The translations under genes were made by a program, and so were the position numbers. Source: a virus. Taken from it: DNA of 26,413 nucleotides. Where the stretch lies: positions 4,148-30,560 of the IMG/VR virus record IMGVR_UViG_3300001472_000092. One strand, 5' to 3'. The notes beneath the pieces are model-generated. The model did no database searches. It saw nothing but the letters and a program-made list of their open reading frames with translations, and was not told the origin of the DNA. This document shows positions 3,525 to 25,020 of this stretch, piece by piece. The stretch's first letter is position 1, and the number at the start of each line of letters is the position of its first letter.

Positions 3525-4373
3525 CTAGCTTATTTTGGCGTGGATCGGAATCGCGGTGAGGTTAGCCTTGGAGTAAACTAACTCAGCTCTTTTAATGCCA
3601 TCGCTTGTTCCCGTTGAAAATCTGGAGGGCGCTCGGCGCTCAAAGGCAATCTTGTGTATTTTGCGACCCGTTTTAATGTCGGACGGAAGTATGACGCAGC
3701 GGATAGAAACGTCTTGGAACGTCTGAATGTCTCCTCTCGCCAAGGAGTTGTCGGCAAACGTCGCCGGGTTTTTGGTGTTCAAGCCTGTATAGCGAGGAGA
3801 TTCTTTTTCTGAGATCGTAACGCGCGGTGACAATGACCGAGCCGACCTGTCAATCGTGTACTTGTTGCCATGGTCATCTATCACCCGGATAAAAAAATCA
3901 AAATACACGACATCTTCGTTTGGGGCGTACTTGCTGGCGTCGGTTTCTTTACCGTTCCACTCGCACAGCATGCGCTCAACGCAGACATTGGCAAGGACGA
4001 TAACCGCGCTCACGTTTTGTTTCCCGGTATTTGTCATGTCAAGTTCGTATTGGTCGCTTTCAAGATACTCAAGTTGACGTATGATTGGAGAATACGAAGG
4101 TAGTCCCGGTATTCCTAGGGGATTCACCTCATCTCTATTGATAAAGGCAACGTCTTTTTCGAGCGTAAAACTGTCTTTACCGATGGTGCCCGTGAGACTT
4201 GATGAGTGAATCATCCTTGGGATAAGATTGCTTCTAAAGCAGCCCGGAGAAAGTGAGCTTAGATTAATTGCGTTTAGGCCCCTATTGATGCCTGCGACGT
4301 CCTCTAAGCGTAAGGATAGTTCGCTCGAGGAGTAGTCTGTATTGGTTTCTAGGTAGGTGTATTTATCTGACAT
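3525..4373 (-). CDS. Putative minor virion/tail protein (282 aa)
   Basis: I do not recognise this protein by family. It has no transmembrane helix or signal peptide. Alternating hydrophobic and polar residues, for example around residues 140-190 and 225-275, suggest a beta-sandwich. Near residues 30-40 it has GLNAINL, which resembles GLNEHNF in the preceding gene product (4373-5143) and DALNGKIETVNL in the 17794-18570 product. All three may be diverged paralogues. Its ATG overlaps the upstream stop by one base (TGATG), implying translational coupling. Lying between the tail nozzle candidate and the giant protein, it is most likely a minor tail or fibre component. The assignment is by context only. 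Confidence 0.85.
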   Translation of the reverse strand: MSDKYTYLETNTDYSSSELSLRLEDVAGINRGLNAINLSSLSPGCFRSNLIPRMIHSSSLTGTIGKDSFTLEKDVAFINRDEVNPLGIPGLPSYSPIIRQLEYLESDQYELDMTNTGKQNVSAVIVLANVCVERMLCEWNGKETDASKYAPNEDVVYFDFFIRVIDDHGNKYTIDRSARSLSPRVTISEKESPRYTGLNTKNPATFADNSLARGDIQTFQDVSIRCVILPSDIKTGRKIHKIAFERRAPSRFSTGTSDGIKRAELVYSKANLTAIPIHAKIS

Positions 4374-18572: not shown

Positions 18573-18761
18573 TTAACCTCGCATAGACCGTTTGTATTCC
18601 AAGACATCTGGGTTGGCAATCTCTTCGCCTTCTTCTTCATCGTTGATATCGCGTAGCGTAGAGTCCGCTTTGCCCATACGTCTTTCGGACAACCTCTTAA
18701 CGAGCTTGCGCGCTCTTGAGGCTGGAGCAGTGCTATTGCTTTGCGCGGCGGTTTCGGGCAT
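18573..18761 (-). CDS. Small charged protein (62 aa), unknown
   Basis: A 62-residue protein with a Ser/Ala-rich start, a basic RARKLVKRLSERRMGK segment (about residues 16-31) and an acidic NDEEEGEE segment (about residues 40-47). It could be a terminase partner or assembly factor, but I see no motif. The ATG shares a base with the terminase stop (TAATG), so it is probably translationally coupled to it. Two bases separate it from the next gene. Confidence 0.75.
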   Translation of the reverse strand: MPETAAQSNSTAPASRARKLVKRLSERRMGKADSTLRDINDEEEGEEIANPDVLEYKRSMRG

Positions 18762-20464
18762 TATTTTCTCCGGTAAGGATATTTACTTTTTCGCCAACGA
18801 TTCTTCTGCTCAGAACCTGTGCCTTTTTTTCTGTAGGCTTGGATTTGATCGTAACTCAAATCTTTGAACGGAATGACGTTTTCCATGCCCTCTGGCGCGT
18901 CTTTCTTGTACCTGCGGGGGCAGAACCTAGCGGCAACACAGGCTATTTGTAGCGCAGATATTTTATCCCAGTGGTGCCTGTCTCTGCGCTTGCCGGTCTT
19001 GCCGGAGTGCAGCATCTCTGAGAGCGCGCTTCGCTCAGTACGTTTGTCTTCCCGGTAAGAGCCGAGCTGACCAACTGTATCTTCGTCCTTTAAGATCAAC
19101 TCATCACGGAGTGCGTCCTGAAGGTACGACAACATCATCGTCACAGACTTGGCGGTAGCAGCGATTCCAGGCTTGTAGGGTTTTTCGTAGTAGAGATTTG
19201 AATAGCCCAGCTCCTCAAGTAGAGCCAGAGTAGCAACACCAACCCCGTTACTCTCCACAGCCACAAGCGCATTGTTGTACTTCTTGCCAACCTCATTGAT
19301 TTTCTTTGCAAATACGACGGGGTCAGTGACGCCTCCGTAGACTGCGACTTGGGTCCATTCTCCATCGTACACCTTCAGCACTTGGAATGCGGCATGATCG
19401 CGAGCAGCATAACCCGCTGGGTCAACTCCGATAGCGTAAACGGCTCCCGGCTCCGGCTTCTCGTATTCCATGTATGGACCTGCCCACGGAACCAATAAAG
19501 CGTCTTGGTGCCGTTTAAGCAGAGTGGAATGGAAGACCGAGCCGACAGATGCAATCCAGCAACTGATGTCGTCAAACGGGTAGTACACCTTAAACAAGTC
19601 TGGATTGCGACGAATCTCTGCGTCCGTGTCAATCATTAATCGGCGAAACTGAAGGTTCTCTTCTCGCAGTCCGAGGTGCCCGTACTTGTCGAGCAAACCC
19701 ATTTCTTCAAGGGTGAGCTTCTGCCCCTTGGGCCACGGGCGTCGGTTGAGCACACCGTCCCAGAAGGGGAAGAACGCATACGCCCATCGGCCTCGGCCCA
19801 GCTTTGCGTCACGGCAGTGGTCGCGCCACCATTCCGCAGAAGGCTCGCTCATTGGCGAGGGAGTTGATTCGAGCAAAACCTGTGAGTGGTCTCGGTTAAT
19901 CATCGACGGGTAAATCATCGAAAACTGGTGACCAGCATTACGCCAGTACGGAAGCTCTGACCCGTGGAAGCTGTCGGGGGACTGACCGATACCAACCGCG
20001 CCCGACTCACCAGACAGGACACGCATCTTGCCGCCGTGCTGGAACGTCAACTGCCGAACCTCTCGGTTGGGCACAGTGTCGGAGCGAACCAGTTCTGGCC
20101 AGCGGCTATGGGTAAGGTGAATGCGTCGGTGCAGGTACTCGGCCCTATCTTTGTTATCCGCAATACAGACGTGATCGTGACCTGGTGTGTAGGCCGATCG
20201 TATGTAGCCGCAGAGCTCTGCTGTGAGGCTCTTGCCTGCCTGCCGATACCCAAGGAGGGTCAGCCACTTGGTCTGTCCTAGAGCGGTCTTTGGTGGCTCG
20301 GAGTAGTACGAGACAACCGTTTCCTGCAGGCGGTCGGTAATCGCAAACGGATCGAAGGTATGTTCTTGACCGGTCTTCTGGTCAATGATCTTGGCGTAAG
20401 CGCGGAGGCTGATGGCGGGGTCAGCTAAAGCCTCAAGAGCCTCGCCTTCAAGAGGGAGGCCCAT
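18761..20464 (-). CDS. terL: Terminase large subunit (567 aa)
   Basis: The packaging motor: ATPase plus headful or cos nuclease. Residues 72-79 (GYRQAGKS) are Walker A. Residues 162-174 (SPDSFHGSELPYW) fill the Walker B position, with E170 as catalytic Glu but Ser instead of the usual Asp before it. LLESTPS (197-203) is the coupling motif. The RNase-H-like nuclease has D348 (AIGVDPAG), E404 (VAVESNGVG) and D500 (RHHWDKISALQ). I start at ATG 20462-20464, overlapping the upstream stop (TAATG) with AGGAG nine bases before it, rather than at 20488 inside the previous gene. 567 residues is a normal size. It has a basic C-terminal tail (KKGTGSEQKNRWRKSKYPYRRK region). Very confident. Confidence 0.95.
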   Translation of the reverse strand: MGLPLEGEALEALADPAISLRAYAKIIDQKTGQEHTFDPFAITDRLQETVVSYYSEPPKTALGQTKWLTLLGYRQAGKSLTAELCGYIRSAYTPGHDHVCIADNKDRAEYLHRRIHLTHSRWPELVRSDTVPNREVRQLTFQHGGKMRVLSGESGAVGIGQSPDSFHGSELPYWRNAGHQFSMIYPSMINRDHSQVLLESTPSPMSEPSAEWWRDHCRDAKLGRGRWAYAFFPFWDGVLNRRPWPKGQKLTLEEMGLLDKYGHLGLREENLQFRRLMIDTDAEIRRNPDLFKVYYPFDDISCWIASVGSVFHSTLLKRHQDALLVPWAGPYMEYEKPEPGAVYAIGVDPAGYAARDHAAFQVLKVYDGEWTQVAVYGGVTDPVVFAKKINEVGKKYNNALVAVESNGVGVATLALLEELGYSNLYYEKPYKPGIAATAKSVTMMLSYLQDALRDELILKDEDTVGQLGSYREDKRTERSALSEMLHSGKTGKRRDRHHWDKISALQIACVAARFCPRRYKKDAPEGMENVIPFKDLSYDQIQAYRKKGTGSEQKNRWRKSKYPYRRK

Positions 20465-20781
20465 TACCACTTGCTCCTGTCGGCCCAAAAAGCGGCACTC
20501 ATCTTGCCCTTGGCAATGTTCTTAGCGTGCCTTGCCTTAAAGCTGGCCCGCTTCTTGCGCATCTTATCGCCCTCACCCCTCTTGGGCTTGCCTGCTGTCT
20601 TCGCTCCTTGCTCGCCATAGCGAATCAGCTTGATGCGGTCGCCATCTTTTGCCAACACCATGTGAGACTTCTTAGGGTGACCCGGTGTACGCTTAGGTTT
20701 GTTGTAACCAGACAGCCCGTGCTTCTTCATGAGCATCGCGCCTCTTGCAGCATTGCGTCTTTTTTTAGCCGTGACCGCCAT
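20464..20781 (-). CDS. Small basic conserved phage protein (105 aa)
   Basis: The text LKKHGLSGYNKPKRTPGHP-like (residues 18-36) continues KSHMVLAKDGDRIKLIRYGE (residues 38-57) and ends ARHAKNIAKGKMSAAFWADR (residues 83-102). It matches a small protein family I recall across many marine phages, next to terminase genes. It is highly basic with a short beta core, so DNA or virion binding is likely, but the function is not established. The KGKMSAA motif recurs in the 13329-13646 product. It starts 2 bases after the preceding stop and its stop overlaps the terminase ATG. Confidence 0.85.
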   Translation of the reverse strand: MAVTAKKRRNAARGAMLMKKHGLSGYNKPKRTPGHPKKSHMVLAKDGDRIKLIRYGEQGAKTAGKPKRGEGDKMRKKRASFKARHAKNIAKGKMSAAFWADRSKW

Positions 20782-21184: not shown

Positions 21185-21383
21185 TCCTCAAGGCCTTGTT
21201 GGCTGCGGCAAAGCGTAAATCTTTTGGAGACGGGGCTTCTTCTGCCATGCCCTCTGTATTGCGAGCAACAAGGTCGTCTAGACTTAGGTATGGGATACCC
21301 TCGTCTGCTAAGGTGGCAATGTTTGCGTCCATCTTAATGTTCATGGCCTCAGCAAGGGCCTGCTCGACAGTATTAATCTTCAC
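21177..21383 (-). CDS. Small acidic-helical protein (68 aa), unknown
   Basis: The longer in-frame reading (starting at 21533) lies inside the preceding gene. A GTG at 21381-21383 with GGAGG six bases before it is the better start, giving 68 residues: VKINTVEQALAEAMNIKMDA and onward, ending LRFAAANKALRNE. It is mildly acidic and helical with no motif. It overlaps the end of the 1215-residue gene by 11 bases and the next gene by 8 bases, which supports a coupled gene. No family recognised. Confidence 0.72.
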   Translation of the reverse strand: MKINTVEQALAEAMNIKMDANIATLADEGIPYLSLDDLVARNTEGMAEEAPSPKDLRFAAANKALRNE

Positions 21384-24300
21384 TTGCCGCCTCCTCTGCC
21401 TTTCGTTTTTTCTCTGCGGCCTTAGCTTTACGCTCTGCGGCCTTAGCTTTTGCGAACTCGCTCTCACCGGACTTCGCTCTTTTCCGAGGAGACCGAACAG
21501 ACTCCATCGCGGCCCGGTTTTTATTAGTCCCAACGCCTACAGAGTAAGTCTTGGTGCCGGTAACCTTGTCACCCAAATACCCATTGGGAGTTATAAACCT
21601 AAGTTCAGGTAAAATATCCACAAACTTCCGCGCCCCCTCCGACATCGTACCGCTTTTCACAGAAGACTTTCCTAGCCTCCTGTACATGTTTTGCTCATAG
21701 AACCACAGAAGGGCCTGCACTTGGAAGTCTTCTAGATTTGTAGCCTTGCCAATATTTTTCCACATTTGCTGGGAAACTTTTTGAGTAATAGTCGGAGTTT
21801 TTACAAGGGCAGGGACGTCTGGATTTAAAAACTTTTTACCTGCGGCGTCTTTCTGTAGTAACCGCCCATACCCCATGCGGGTAAGCTCTTGACGATGCTG
21901 CCATACATCGAATGTGCCCCCAGGCATCCCAACCAAGTTGCCGCCGTATGTCCCAATCTTGGGACCGTTCCCATACAAGTTTGGCATAAGAGCGCCAATC
22001 GGAACAGGATGGCCGGGGCCCGCGTGTGTCGGAGAGAAGACCCCGGACTCTTGGCGCGTCTGCCGTATGCCTCGCTTACTGTTTAGCTCCAACAGTTCAC
22101 GAGCCGCTCCGTCAAGGCCGAGCTTTTTAATACGGCCACTGTAAAACAGTAGCCCTTGTTGAACGGTAGGCGCTCGAGTCCCGTACCCTGCTAGTCTGCC
22201 GTCTTTAATGGTAAAAGGATTTCTTCCGCTCATGCCGCCTTTTTGCGTCAACTCGGCGTAAGAGGCTAAGGCAAACCTTCCGTTTTCAACGGGGTTGAGA
22301 CCATTAGATGTATAGCTAGCGATGTTTAACAACGTCATCCGGTGAACTTCGCTGTTTTTTAACTCGGGAAAAACCTGTGAAGCGGTGTCGAGGAAGTCCC
22401 GGACATCGTCTGTGTACCAACTCATAAATGCTTTTGTATCTTCAAGTTGGCTAAGAAGTTCTTCCGTAAGCGTATTCTGCAGGTATACTAGGCCGGTATC
22501 GTCAAACGGCATAGGGGTTGTTCTGCCGGTCGCTTCTTCATACTTGTCTGTCAGAAAGTCAAAGATATTATTGTTGGTGATTGTCTGACCTTCTTTGGCA
22601 TACGGCGTTCCGTCTGGACGCAGAATCTCATAAAGAGTTCTGTCTTCTGCTACGATTGGCACAGTAAACGAAGCTCTTGAGTCAGCCACGATTTCGGGCG
22701 CGGCTTTGTTTAACGCAATCAGCGGAGCAGGCGGGCTTTGAATGTCGGGATACTGGTCAAGAATATCCTGAGAAACAGGCTCTCCACGCTTGTACTTGCT
22801 ACGGACCATCTTCTCATGGTACGCCCGTATGTCTTCTACTTCTTGGGGCTTGAGCCTGTTTTGCTTGGCAAGTCCTTTTGTATCCGAAGGAGAAACTCGT
22901 CCAGTGACTCGTTCGAGGACTTGTGAAAGAGCTTCATATTCTGGCGTCGTTGCGCCTTTGAGGATTTCTTCTCCAAACTCTACCTCCAAATCTGGCGTGT
23001 CAATCTCATCAAATGTATCAAGGTGGAAAATGGCGTCTTGGTCACCGTTCTTGGCCAGCCTTGCCGCGAGCAATCTACCCTCGTCTGTGTTTGGCGCAAC
23101 TACCGAAACGTCAAAAACGTATTTATTGTTGTCTTTATCAAACCAAACACCCAGGTGTACGCCGTCTACATCAAGCAGGCTTTCCATTGTCTGCGCGTAG
23201 GCCCGCACTGTGTCAGGGGTAAAATCTGCAGGGTCAACTTTAAGTTCGGTGTCTTTGAAAGGGGCAACGCTAAATCCAGTTTCTTTTGCGGTTTTTGTTC
23301 CGACATCGTAGGTTATCCCGCCATTGTCTCGGATGGTTTGCGCGAGGCCTGCCGTCTCTTCGGGGGCTAGATTGTATCGCCTAGATTGCGCGAACTGACG
23401 AACTGCGTCAGGAAGCTCAAGGGTGGCGATGTCAACCGCTCGGCGCTCAGAGTCTTTTGCCAATCCCACGTCGAGGTCGGCCCGACGTTGAAGTTCGGCA
23501 CCTTGTTCGGCGACATCGTCTACACCAGACAGGCCTCTCACATTTCTCGACGGAGGAGCGTCCTGTAGAGGCATGATGCCAGAAGCGTATGTGGGCGTGT
23601 CAATCTGAGCCGTCGTCTCTGCAGCTTGTTGCGCGCCCTCTGGGGTCTGTGCTGCGGCTCGACGAGTCTGAATGTCGGTAAGCCGATCATCTATAAACTT
23701 CTGACGAGTCAATCGTTCAGCACGATTTTCCAAGTAGGCTAAATCTTGCAGGCCAGCAGGGTCGCCTTCTTTTGGATTTAGCCTCCGCTCAATCTCCGCA
23801 GGAGGAAAGCCCAGCTCTTCCAATGTGCTCTTGATGTCCTCAACATCGCCAGTCTCCAAAGTCGTGACCTGCGTGCTAGAAGGCCGGGGCATTTTTTTGT
23901 AGCCCCGAGGAGCTCTTGCCTCAAAAGCATCCTCTGGGGTTTCTTTAGTATTGAATGTTACAACCTCTCGAGTGGGTTTATTACTCGTTAAAGACTGACC
24001 CAAAGCCTCGTAGGCTTTAAATCCTTTATCTTCAAGGGCTTTAACTAACTTTTTTGTAGCATCATCCCCAAGGTAGAAACCTTCATCTTTAAATCTAGGG
24101 TCAAGAAGCTCGTGCATCATTCCGTCATTATTTGCATTCTTGTAACCTAATCCAACTAAAATATTACGAGCTTCATCCTCAGATGCTATCTGACTTTTGG
24201 GTATTTTATATTCTAATATCTCGGAGGTTTCTTTCTCTTCAGCATACTCTTTAGCTAACTTCTTATCAGGTGTTGTATAACTAACAGGGCTATCTACATC

Positions 24301-25020
24301 TTCAGCGCCCCCTCTATATAATGTTACTAAATCTTCTTCAGCTTTAGGCATTTTTTTGTAGCTTTTGGTGGCTTGCTCCGCCCCTTCTTTTAACAACTCT
24401 TCCGCCGCGCCTTTTGCGGCCTTGGCTCCCTTTGCGCCTGGGATAAAGCCTAGTGAGGCCATTGACGTTGCGGCCAAGCGTTGCGCTTGAGTCAGATTAG
24501 GGTTCGAGTCTAAGGACTGCTTTAATATGTCGTAAGCGGCACCCGCTGCCCCAATCGGGTACGAGATGACCTCTGCAGGGAGTGTGGGGCGCTCTTTTAA
24601 GACCGCTCCTGCGATGTCTGCGCCAGTAGGTGTGCCTACTCGAGGTACGGTTGGGTCGATAGCAGGGATGTCTTGCTCTACAGCTCTTTGCTCTGTAGGA
24701 GTCGAGGGCCTAACCGTCGAGCCAGAGGGTATGGATATTGGGCGGTTTAACTTTAGATTTAAGCGCGCTACCAATGCGTCATTCTTAGCCTTTGCAATCC
24801 TGCGCTTTTCTTCCGGGGTCAAGTCTTCGGGGGCAATGTATGGGAGTTCCCGATCATACGCCAAAGACTCATTGTACGCACGCTGCGCTTGACCTTCTGG
24901 AGAAGCCTCAAACTCCTCCTGCTCACGCTTCACGGATGCTTGGCGTTCAAGGTCAATAGGGCTGGGGGCGAACCCTAAGTTTGCGGCTAGTTGCCGAAAA
25001 GAGAAATCACCTGTGGCCAT
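21373..25020 (-). CDS. Large polyvalent-type protein with ADP-ribosyltransferase-like module (1215 aa)
   Basis: The ATG lies one base after the preceding stop, with GAGGAG upstream. Segments seen: 1-220, helical with low complexity; 226-357, an ART-like module with R236 in LYRGG, S247-Y248 in VSYTTPDKKLAKEY and E352 in REVVTF; about 567-675, a beta-rich domain (GGITYDV, GFSVAP, GVWFDKDNNKYVFDVSVVAP) recalling the domain often seen in giant phage polyvalent proteins; about 930-1115, with GPKIGTYGGNLVGM, FDVWQHR and QVQALLWFYEQNMY, like another polyvalent domain; and a Lys/Ala heptad tail after 1190 (tandem repeat). Known polyvalent proteins are often virion-carried and injected into the host, so this one may be too. 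The catalytic role is inferred. The module is bracketed by direct repeats, described separately. Confidence 0.85.
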   Translation of the reverse strand: MATGDFSFRQLAANLGFAPSPIDLERQASVKREQEEFEASPEGQAQRAYNESLAYDRELPYIAPEDLTPEEKRRIAKAKNDALVARLNLKLNRPISIPSGSTVRPSTPTEQRAVEQDIPAIDPTVPRVGTPTGADIAGAVLKERPTLPAEVISYPIGAAGAAYDILKQSLDSNPNLTQAQRLAATSMASLGFIPGAKGAKAAKGAAEELLKEGAEQATKSYKKMPKAEEDLVTLYRGGAEDVDSPVSYTTPDKKLAKEYAEEKETSEILEYKIPKSQIASEDEARNILVGLGYKNANNDGMMHELLDPRFKDEGFYLGDDATKKLVKALEDKGFKAYEALGQSLTSNKPTREVVTFNTKETPEDAFEARAPRGYKKMPRPSSTQVTTLETGDVEDIKSTLEELGFPPAEIERRLNPKEGDPAGLQDLAYLENRAERLTRQKFIDDRLTDIQTRRAAAQTPEGAQQAAETTAQIDTPTYASGIMPLQDAPPSRNVRGLSGVDDVAEQGAELQRRADLDVGLAKDSERRAVDIATLELPDAVRQFAQSRRYNLAPEETAGLAQTIRDNGGITYDVGTKTAKETGFSVAPFKDTELKVDPADFTPDTVRAYAQTMESLLDVDGVHLGVWFDKDNNKYVFDVSVVAPNTDEGRLLAARLAKNGDQDAIFHLDTFDEIDTPDLEVEFGEEILKGATTPEYEALSQVLERVTGRVSPSDTKGLAKQNRLKPQEVEDIRAYHEKMVRSKYKRGEPVSQDILDQYPDIQSPPAPLIALNKAAPEIVADSRASFTVPIVAEDRTLYEILRPDGTPYAKEGQTITNNNIFDFLTDKYEEATGRTTPMPFDDTGLVYLQNTLTEELLSQLEDTKAFMSWYTDDVRDFLDTASQVFPELKNSEVHRMTLLNIASYTSNGLNPVENGRFALASYAELTQKGGMSGRNPFTIKDGRLAGYGTRAPTVQQGLLFYSGRIKKLGLDGAARELLELNSKRGIRQTRQESGVFSPTHAGPGHPVPIGALMPNLYGNGPKIGTYGGNLVGMPGGTFDVWQHRQELTRMGYGRLLQKDAAGKKFLNPDVPALVKTPTITQKVSQQMWKNIGKATNLEDFQVQALLWFYEQNMYRRLGKSSVKSGTMSEGARKFVDILPELRFITPNGYLGDKVTGTKTYSVGVGTNKNRAAMESVRSPRKRAKSGESEFAKAKAAERKAKAAEKKRKAEEAASED
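21412..21450. repeat. Tandem 21-bp period repeat in Lys/Ala tail
   Basis: CTCTGCGGCCTTAGCTTT occurs at 21412-21429 and again at 21433-21450, a period of 21 bases or 7 codons. It encodes a KAKAAE-type heptad at the C-terminus of the 1215-residue protein, giving a basic helical, histone-like tail. Confidence 0.85.
23888..23903. repeat. 16-bp direct repeat, copy 2 (end of ART-like module)
   Basis: GGCATTTTTTTGTAGC, perfect copy of 24347-24362. It encodes residues 374-378 (YKKMP); copy 1 encodes 221-225. In the coding direction copy 1 comes first. Confidence 0.9.
23904..24362 (-). other. AT-rich in-frame segment encoding an ADP-ribosyltransferase-like module
   Basis: By hand count 23941-24360 has 153 G+C in 420 bases (about 36%), while nearby 60-base rows at 23701, 23761 and 24421 give 50, 55 and 60%. 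The encoded segment has LYRGG, SYTT followed by a helix (KKLAKEYAEE), a strand with ILEYKIPKSQIAS and a final REVVTF, an R-S-E-like order seen in ADP-ribosyltransferase folds and in related domains of polyvalent phage proteins. Activity is inferred. Confidence 0.6.
24347..24362. repeat. 16-bp direct repeat, copy 1 (start of ART-like module)
   Basis: GGCATTTTTTTGTAGC, identical to the copy at 23888-23903. The two copies are 459 bases apart, a multiple of three, and both are read in the same frame as (S/G)YKKMP. They bracket an AT-rich segment encoding the ART-like module. Confidence 0.9.

Follow-up and report, generated by a model that had tools for sequence, protein, structure and literature searches.

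An ART-like cassette between direct repeats in a polyvalent-type phage protein, at a site that is empty, filled or differently filled in related phages

Introduction

How can a phage exchange a domain within a single reading frame and keep that frame intact? To our knowledge the mechanism of such exchange is not settled, and the question is raised by a locus in the virus record IMGVR_UViG_3300001472_000092. The window analysed here is a 26,413-nucleotide portion (positions 4,148 to 30,560) of this 30,560-bp (30.6-kb) record. On its minus strand it codes for a 1215-aa polyvalent-type protein, the carrier, in which a segment resembling an ADP-ribosyltransferase (ART) lies between two direct repeats. 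A preliminary description proposed that this segment was gained by recombination through the repeat, or could be lost by deletion between the copies. Comparison with related phages bears out this reading: the segment is a genuine insertion, and three states are seen at its site.

ARTs are the commonest protein-modifying domain of polyvalent proteins, whose architectures are mosaic, and recombination with cassettes has been suggested for one polyvalent kinase locus (PMC5512222).

Results

The argument depends on the following features of the window, given with the loci (L numbers) to which they were compared.

21373..25020, minus strand: carrier gene for the 1215-aa polyvalent-type phage protein, defined by its open reading frame (ORF) and by homologues in L026, L032/L033 and L029
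24361..24948, minus strand: conserved N-terminal domain, residues 25-220, with profile matches in L015, L017, L018, L026 and L032, stopping just ahead of the first repeat
24347..24362, minus strand: direct repeat copy 1, GCTACAAAAAAATGCC (SYKKMP), exact match
23887..24345, minus strand: inserted ART-like cassette with the second repeat, residues 226-378, absent from L032/L033, replaced in L026, with homologues in other carriers and an outlying composition
23953..24330, minus strand: predicted ART-like core, residues 231-356, with candidate active site R236, Y248 and E352, from an AlphaFold2 model, structure comparison and conservation
23888..23903, minus strand: direct repeat copy 2, GCTACAAAAAAATGCC (GYKKMP), exact match
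21424..23886, minus strand: conserved core, residues 379-1199, 60-69% identical to L026, L032 and L029, restarting right after the second repeat

A terminase scan yielded 70 loci, ~60 of them at 54-100% identity. Carrier homologues with the same core were present in L026 (60%), L032/L033 (66%, the two genes being identical) and L029 (69%, partial). Profile comparison showed that conservation of the N-terminal domain stops at residue 220 and that conservation of the core restarts at ~384, near the two repeats. L032/L033 lack residues 226-378 altogether: the N-terminal domain is joined to the core with nothing between, and the window flanks, when fused across one repeat, are approximately collinear with L032 (KEGAEQATKSYKKMPRPSS.. 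compared to KEGAEQAVEGAEEISD..). The longest exact repeat at this empty site is 10 bp. The preliminary description had looked to relatives that lack the segment and retain a single YKKMP. The empty relatives were found, but they bear neither YKKMP nor any module remnant, and the exact pre-insertion allele is therefore not in hand.

In L026 the same slot holds a different ART-fold domain (TITLYHRTSPEAAAEIRR...). This insert is bracketed by copies of GAAGGCGyrGAGAAGGTGGCGAA that are 21/23 identical, 342 bp apart and in frame; the encoded peptide, EGxEKVAK, bears no relation to YKKMP, yet it sits in the same linker. Repeats of different sequence are thus found at both filled slots (16/16 in the window, 21/23 in L026), and the empty site has none. 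The window, L026 and L032 genomes align in long stretches at ~66-82% DNA identity, but not through the cassette. With regard to transposon-like insertion, the window insert encodes nothing besides an ART-like domain, in frame with the carrier. Taken together, the comparisons of these genomes suggest that the site is a replacement hotspot, receiving different ARTs with different repeats, rather than the home of a one-off cassette.

Three more distant carriers (L015, L017 and L018) have the N-terminal domain in common, followed by different sequence. L015 has a 98% identical terminase, and its polyvalent protein (L015:6322-9360) agrees in the N-terminal domain only, continuing into GNAT and ART-PolyVal domains, with ParB-like stretches recognised by eye. 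Scans of viral contigs with the core profile and with the N-terminal domain returned no new close carriers, and tblastn of the carrier core alone in phages gave only matches at E>=0.2.

We also asked how far the repeat itself could be a product of chance or of assembly. As first described, both copies are exact, spaced by 459 bp and in frame, placing YKKMP at residues 221-225 and 374-378. Within the window GCTACAAAAAAATGCC has 2 sites with up to 2 mismatches, where 0.01 are expected, and the 30,560-bp record contains no further exact copy. Both copies recur at the same spacing in two further IMG/VR contigs of the window phage (L002 and L003/L014), so the repeat is not an assembly slip; their agreement rules out an artefact of that kind. 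Codon shuffling of the carrier gene (300 shuffles) produced no repeat of at least 16 bp at 150-900 bp spacing, the longest being 15, and none of 194 same-geometry placements elsewhere on the same strand matched the repeat in quality. A run of A makes up 7 of the 16 bases, which favours coincidence; the copies nevertheless lie exactly at the edges of the segment that relatives are missing, and we judge a chance repeat or artefact to be highly improbable.

The base composition of the insert is foreign to the carrier. Residues 226-378 have a G+C content of 38.8%, with 28% at third codon positions (GC3), compared to 51.7% (GC3 51%) in the remainder of the gene; the low value first reported for the module holds, although the 36% given then was slightly low. 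Among 5261 sliding 459-bp coding windows the lowest (37.7% G+C) overlaps the module, and the minimum elsewhere is 45.8%. These values bear on the alternative that the module is ancestral, that L032/L033 deleted it and L026 replaced it, and that the repeat is a footprint of tandem linker evolution with no recent gain. Deletion between repeats would indeed give a collinear empty protein like that of L032, and the relatives are too few to polarise the change. Since a segment long in residence would be expected to have moved towards host composition, however, G+C and GC3 values far below those of the carrier and of every other coding stretch scanned count against long residence, as does the lack of any trace of YKKMP or module in the empty relatives. 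We therefore regard an ancestral module as unlikely.

The module is also found in proteins otherwise unrelated to the carrier, as the insertion reading had anticipated. Phage C75C1 and L009-L013 have copies of this first family (ART1), the proteins being 1177-2958 aa long. Once the cassettes are masked, no similarity at 1e-6 links the carriers of the window, L007/L009, L010, L011, L012 and L013; among ART1 carriers only L007 and L009 form a related pair. L009 and L011, whose carriers are unrelated, match in DNA only within the cassette (390 bp, 81% identity), and GC3 falls below that of the carrier in 5 of 6 module copies. No copy of the window module was detected in prokaryote genomes by one contig scan with two peptide patterns, which rules out close copies only, and an exact linker 20-mer had no match there. 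For the carriers of C75C1 and L103, a search of phages for module-free homologues found none.

The L026-type domain (ART2) is likewise shared, being present in a dozen other IMG/VR loci from the environment, most of which code for large multidomain proteins. It also stands alone, as a protein of ~117 aa, in mycobacteriophages (phrog_6170, E=5.6e-8); two of these standalone homologues (L095:568-921 and L096:589-933) directly adjoin tRNA-Cys genes. A second carrier family, unrelated to the first, comprises L011, which has ART1, and L103/L105, which have ART2; homology between them extends to either side of the cassette, and hence ART1 and ART2 take turns at an equivalent position there as well.

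A 345-bp linker-ART2-linker block is 89% identical in DNA between L103 and L105, and both of its ends fall inside repeated linkers of 35-37 bp encoding APATPK(D/E). Beyond this block their DNA shows only further linker matches and one 52-bp match, and the proteins beside the cassette are 42% and 29% identical on the two sides. One linker copy is identical (35/35) between different positions of L103 and L105; L105 has three copies around two domains, and L103 has two around one. The second of the L105 domains, after ART2 (L105:2948-3588), is bracketed by the same linker repeat and is missing from L103. At L104:2218-2934, a unit of 226 codons that immediately precedes ART2 is flanked by a 39-bp exact in-frame repeat (IKNLQGNVKKDKA). 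Such cases suggest that linkers act as recombination seams.

The same loci help to weigh a reading in which the repeats work as peptide motifs, for example as sites of protease cleavage or docking that release the ART domain, with DNA identity incidental. YKKMP does repeat at the protein level, where identical codons would be expected in ~1/8 of cases, and DNA identity of the repeat alone is for this reason modest evidence for a DNA-level event. In addition, YKKMP flanks a discrete domain that is predicted to fold, and peptidase domains are frequent in polyvalent proteins (PMC5512222). Nevertheless, EGxEKVAK occupies the same site in L026 and APATPK(D/E) the linkers of L103/L105, and because neither is related to YKKMP, which occurs in no other phage compared, there is no common repeat motif. 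The L026 repeat matches at the DNA level, and the DNA match of L103 and L105 terminates within linkers. The comparative evidence for a DNA-level event is thus stronger than the DNA identity of the repeat, and it seems improbable that the repeats are peptide motifs alone.

We next consider what the module may do. Its AlphaFold2 model (predicted local distance difference test [pLDDT] 79; predicted template modelling score [pTM] 0.71) has an ART-compatible strand order. In a VIA-align comparison ~24 of 26 rows belonged to the ART superfamily, at Z 2.2-5.9, including diphtheria toxin CRM197, KptA/Tpt1, RES and ParT toxins, tankyrase, ExoS and HopU1, and BFVD matches included proteins named ART-PolyVal-like and large polyvalent proteins. 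The L026 insert gave a similar picture (pLDDT 84, pTM 0.78): nearly all 50 rows of its structure comparison were ART-fold proteins, with matches to Tpt1/KptA and diphtheria toxin at Z up to 7.5. An ART-superfamily fold for the module, modest but consistent in its resemblance as first proposed, thus has moderate support, and only moderate because Z is below 8. A sequence search of PDB chains with the module returned chance-level matches only, three ART-PolyVal-like domains, compared to it profile against profile on very thin alignments, gave no signal, and no Pfam model matched either the module or the L026 insert. For ART-PolyVal (PF18760), the module had no match at E<=10, and the L012 copy scored 17.5 bits against a cut-off of 31.2. 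The module model also matches residues 1418-1597 of PDB 9k3a_B, a pre-ejectosome chain of cyanophage A4, at Z 5.6, a hint that an ejection protein whose structure is solved may contain an ART-like domain.

R236, S247-Y248-T249-T250 and E352 stand at the positions originally given. The closer copies keep R236, Y248 and E352, with E352 present in all five. Two distant copies (L012:5974-6420 and L013:5938-6339) have H for R236 and N for E352; with the arginine replaced and the glutamate gone, their chemistry may be different or their activity lost. The residues of the window module do not fit the Tox-ART-HYD2 clade, which has H, Y and D. Compared to the R-S-E of Alt/VIP2, R236 and E352 are present and S247-Y248-T249-T250 is ambiguous in strand 2, with no Alt-family profile match; the likeness to T4 Alt first suggested is only a functional one. 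The module therefore seems ART-like and in an ART-PolyVal setting, yet it appears to fit neither PF18760, HYD2 nor Alt exactly.

It could also have an ART fold without being a protein ADP-ribosyltransferase, as a RES-type NAD+-degrading enzyme or as a domain that has lost activity. RES-type toxins and KptA are among its best structural matches, and the RES active site of R, Y and N (PMC9503650) may be set beside R236, Y248 and E352 of the module and H and N of L012/L013. On the other hand, no Pfam RES match was obtained even at E<=10, and the five closer copies retain E352. We consider such an activity, or none, possible but doubtful.

The setting of the carrier gene is given by two neighbours.

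20464..20781, minus strand: small gene between carrier and terminase (phrog_7595, E=6e-39; phrog_220, E=1e-5), with 'minor head protein and DNA pilot' among the PHROGs it resembles
18761..20488, minus strand: terminase large subunit, by PHROG and Pfam

The carrier thus lies one small gene upstream of the terminase large subunit in a head/packaging cluster, with a P22-like portal gene further along. Phage polyvalent proteins have the genomic setting seen here, according to Iyer et al. 2017 (PMC5512222). With several unrelated domains in one polypeptide (N-terminal domain, cassette and core), the carrier is a polyvalent protein by the usual definition, a long multidomain polypeptide coded in the head/terminase region, and it is probably carried in the virion and enters the host along with the DNA. 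Its C-terminal tail (window 21373-21500) is Lys/Arg-rich, is present also in L032 and L026, and in the window contains an 18-bp near-tandem repeat. L022:1-2922 codes for a relative of the core with an HELLH stretch, resembling a zincin peptidase.

Discussion

We think it likely that the segment is an exchangeable, linker-delimited ART-fold cassette, acquired horizontally, within a probably packaged polyvalent-type protein beside the terminase. The preliminary description had held that the insertion reading would fail if all close homologues carried the segment, with no single-repeat form and at the same composition, or if no ART-like core was predicted; neither was seen. A cassette would enter the flexible linker between N-terminal domain and core by horizontal transfer, leaving duplicated linker DNA as direct repeats, and existing repeats would then let homologous or annealing-type recombination replace the cassette in frame or delete it cleanly. 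At present one lineage has an empty slot, that of the window has ART1 and another has ART2. The carrier protein would be packaged and delivered with the DNA, and its ART domain may modify a host target or consume NAD+ early in infection.

Several findings weigh against this account. Just three distinct close carrier homologues were found, none of which has a single YKKMP. The resemblance to ARTs is modest, the best Z being 5.9, and Foldseek against PDB gave no hits at E<=0.001, leaving VIA-align and BFVD as the basis for judging the fold. Bracketing repeats above control were seen for the window cassette (P1), L026, L103 and L105, with L012 borderline; the other 15 of 20 cassette instances (L007, L009-L011, L013, L098-L102, L104 and L106-L109) had none, so repeats are not obligatory and are rejected as a general mark of ART1/ART2 cassettes. 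The L103/L105 linkers are Pro/Lys/Glu-rich and of low complexity, where repeats arise easily, and the two loci are related. Finally, repeats of at least 14 bp occur in 6 of 70 long ORFs other than the window phage copies, L026 and L103-L105.

A broader proposal is more tentative, and we give it less than even chances as a whole: that a general linker-repeat system builds phage polyvalent proteins, near-identical linker DNA lying between effector domains and forming the seam at which ARTs are gained, lost or replaced in frame in one step; that the same two ART families take turns in homologous slots of carriers that are not related; and that this exchange is caught at different moments in the window phage, L026, L103/L105 and perhaps L104.

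Having one slot empty, filled and differently filled, together with a DNA transfer that ends in linkers, makes in-frame effector exchange by linker repeats directly testable. The alleles at the slot suggest how phages swap probable injected weapons within one gene. Comparing carriers, seeking bracketed inserts and folding them is moreover a practical route to effector domains missed by profile libraries.

Polyvalent ARTs and the mosaicism of phage proteins are already known (PMC5512222, PMC9503650, PMC10684548). In the literature searched, which included few subscription journals, we found no account of internal ART cassettes that are delimited by repeats and have both empty and replaced alleles. 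Phage protein-fragment shuffling (PMC10684548) is similar in its domain mosaicism within phage proteins, although that work makes no mention of polyvalent proteins, linkers or repeats. T4 Alt, which is packaged and injected (PMC5512222), and ModA and ModB have the ART-superfamily fold predicted for the module, but they are separate proteins of the R-S-E clade, and no sequence match to the module was found. ART-PolyVal (PF18760) has a similar motif order ([HR]G[GT], Y[TF][TS], A..YA) and similar carriers, and one distant copy of the module matches it weakly; the window module differs in having R instead of H in strand 1. The ARTs described in polyvalent proteins belong to the H-Y-D clade, T4 Alt to the R-S-E clade (PMC5512222).

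In setting, the likeness is to polyvalent proteins themselves, giant multidomain proteins beside terminase and portal genes (PMC5512222). The text of that work does not use 'direct repeat', 'insertion' or 'exchange', and to it the window case adds an empty site, a replaced site and a linker-delimited DNA transfer. Polymorphic toxin systems (PMC3482391, PMC5512222) are alike in that recombination swaps effector domains in a fixed carrier. Their variable domain is C-terminal, however, whereas the window insert is internal (residues 226-378) with a conserved core after it, and therefore both of its edges must stay in frame.

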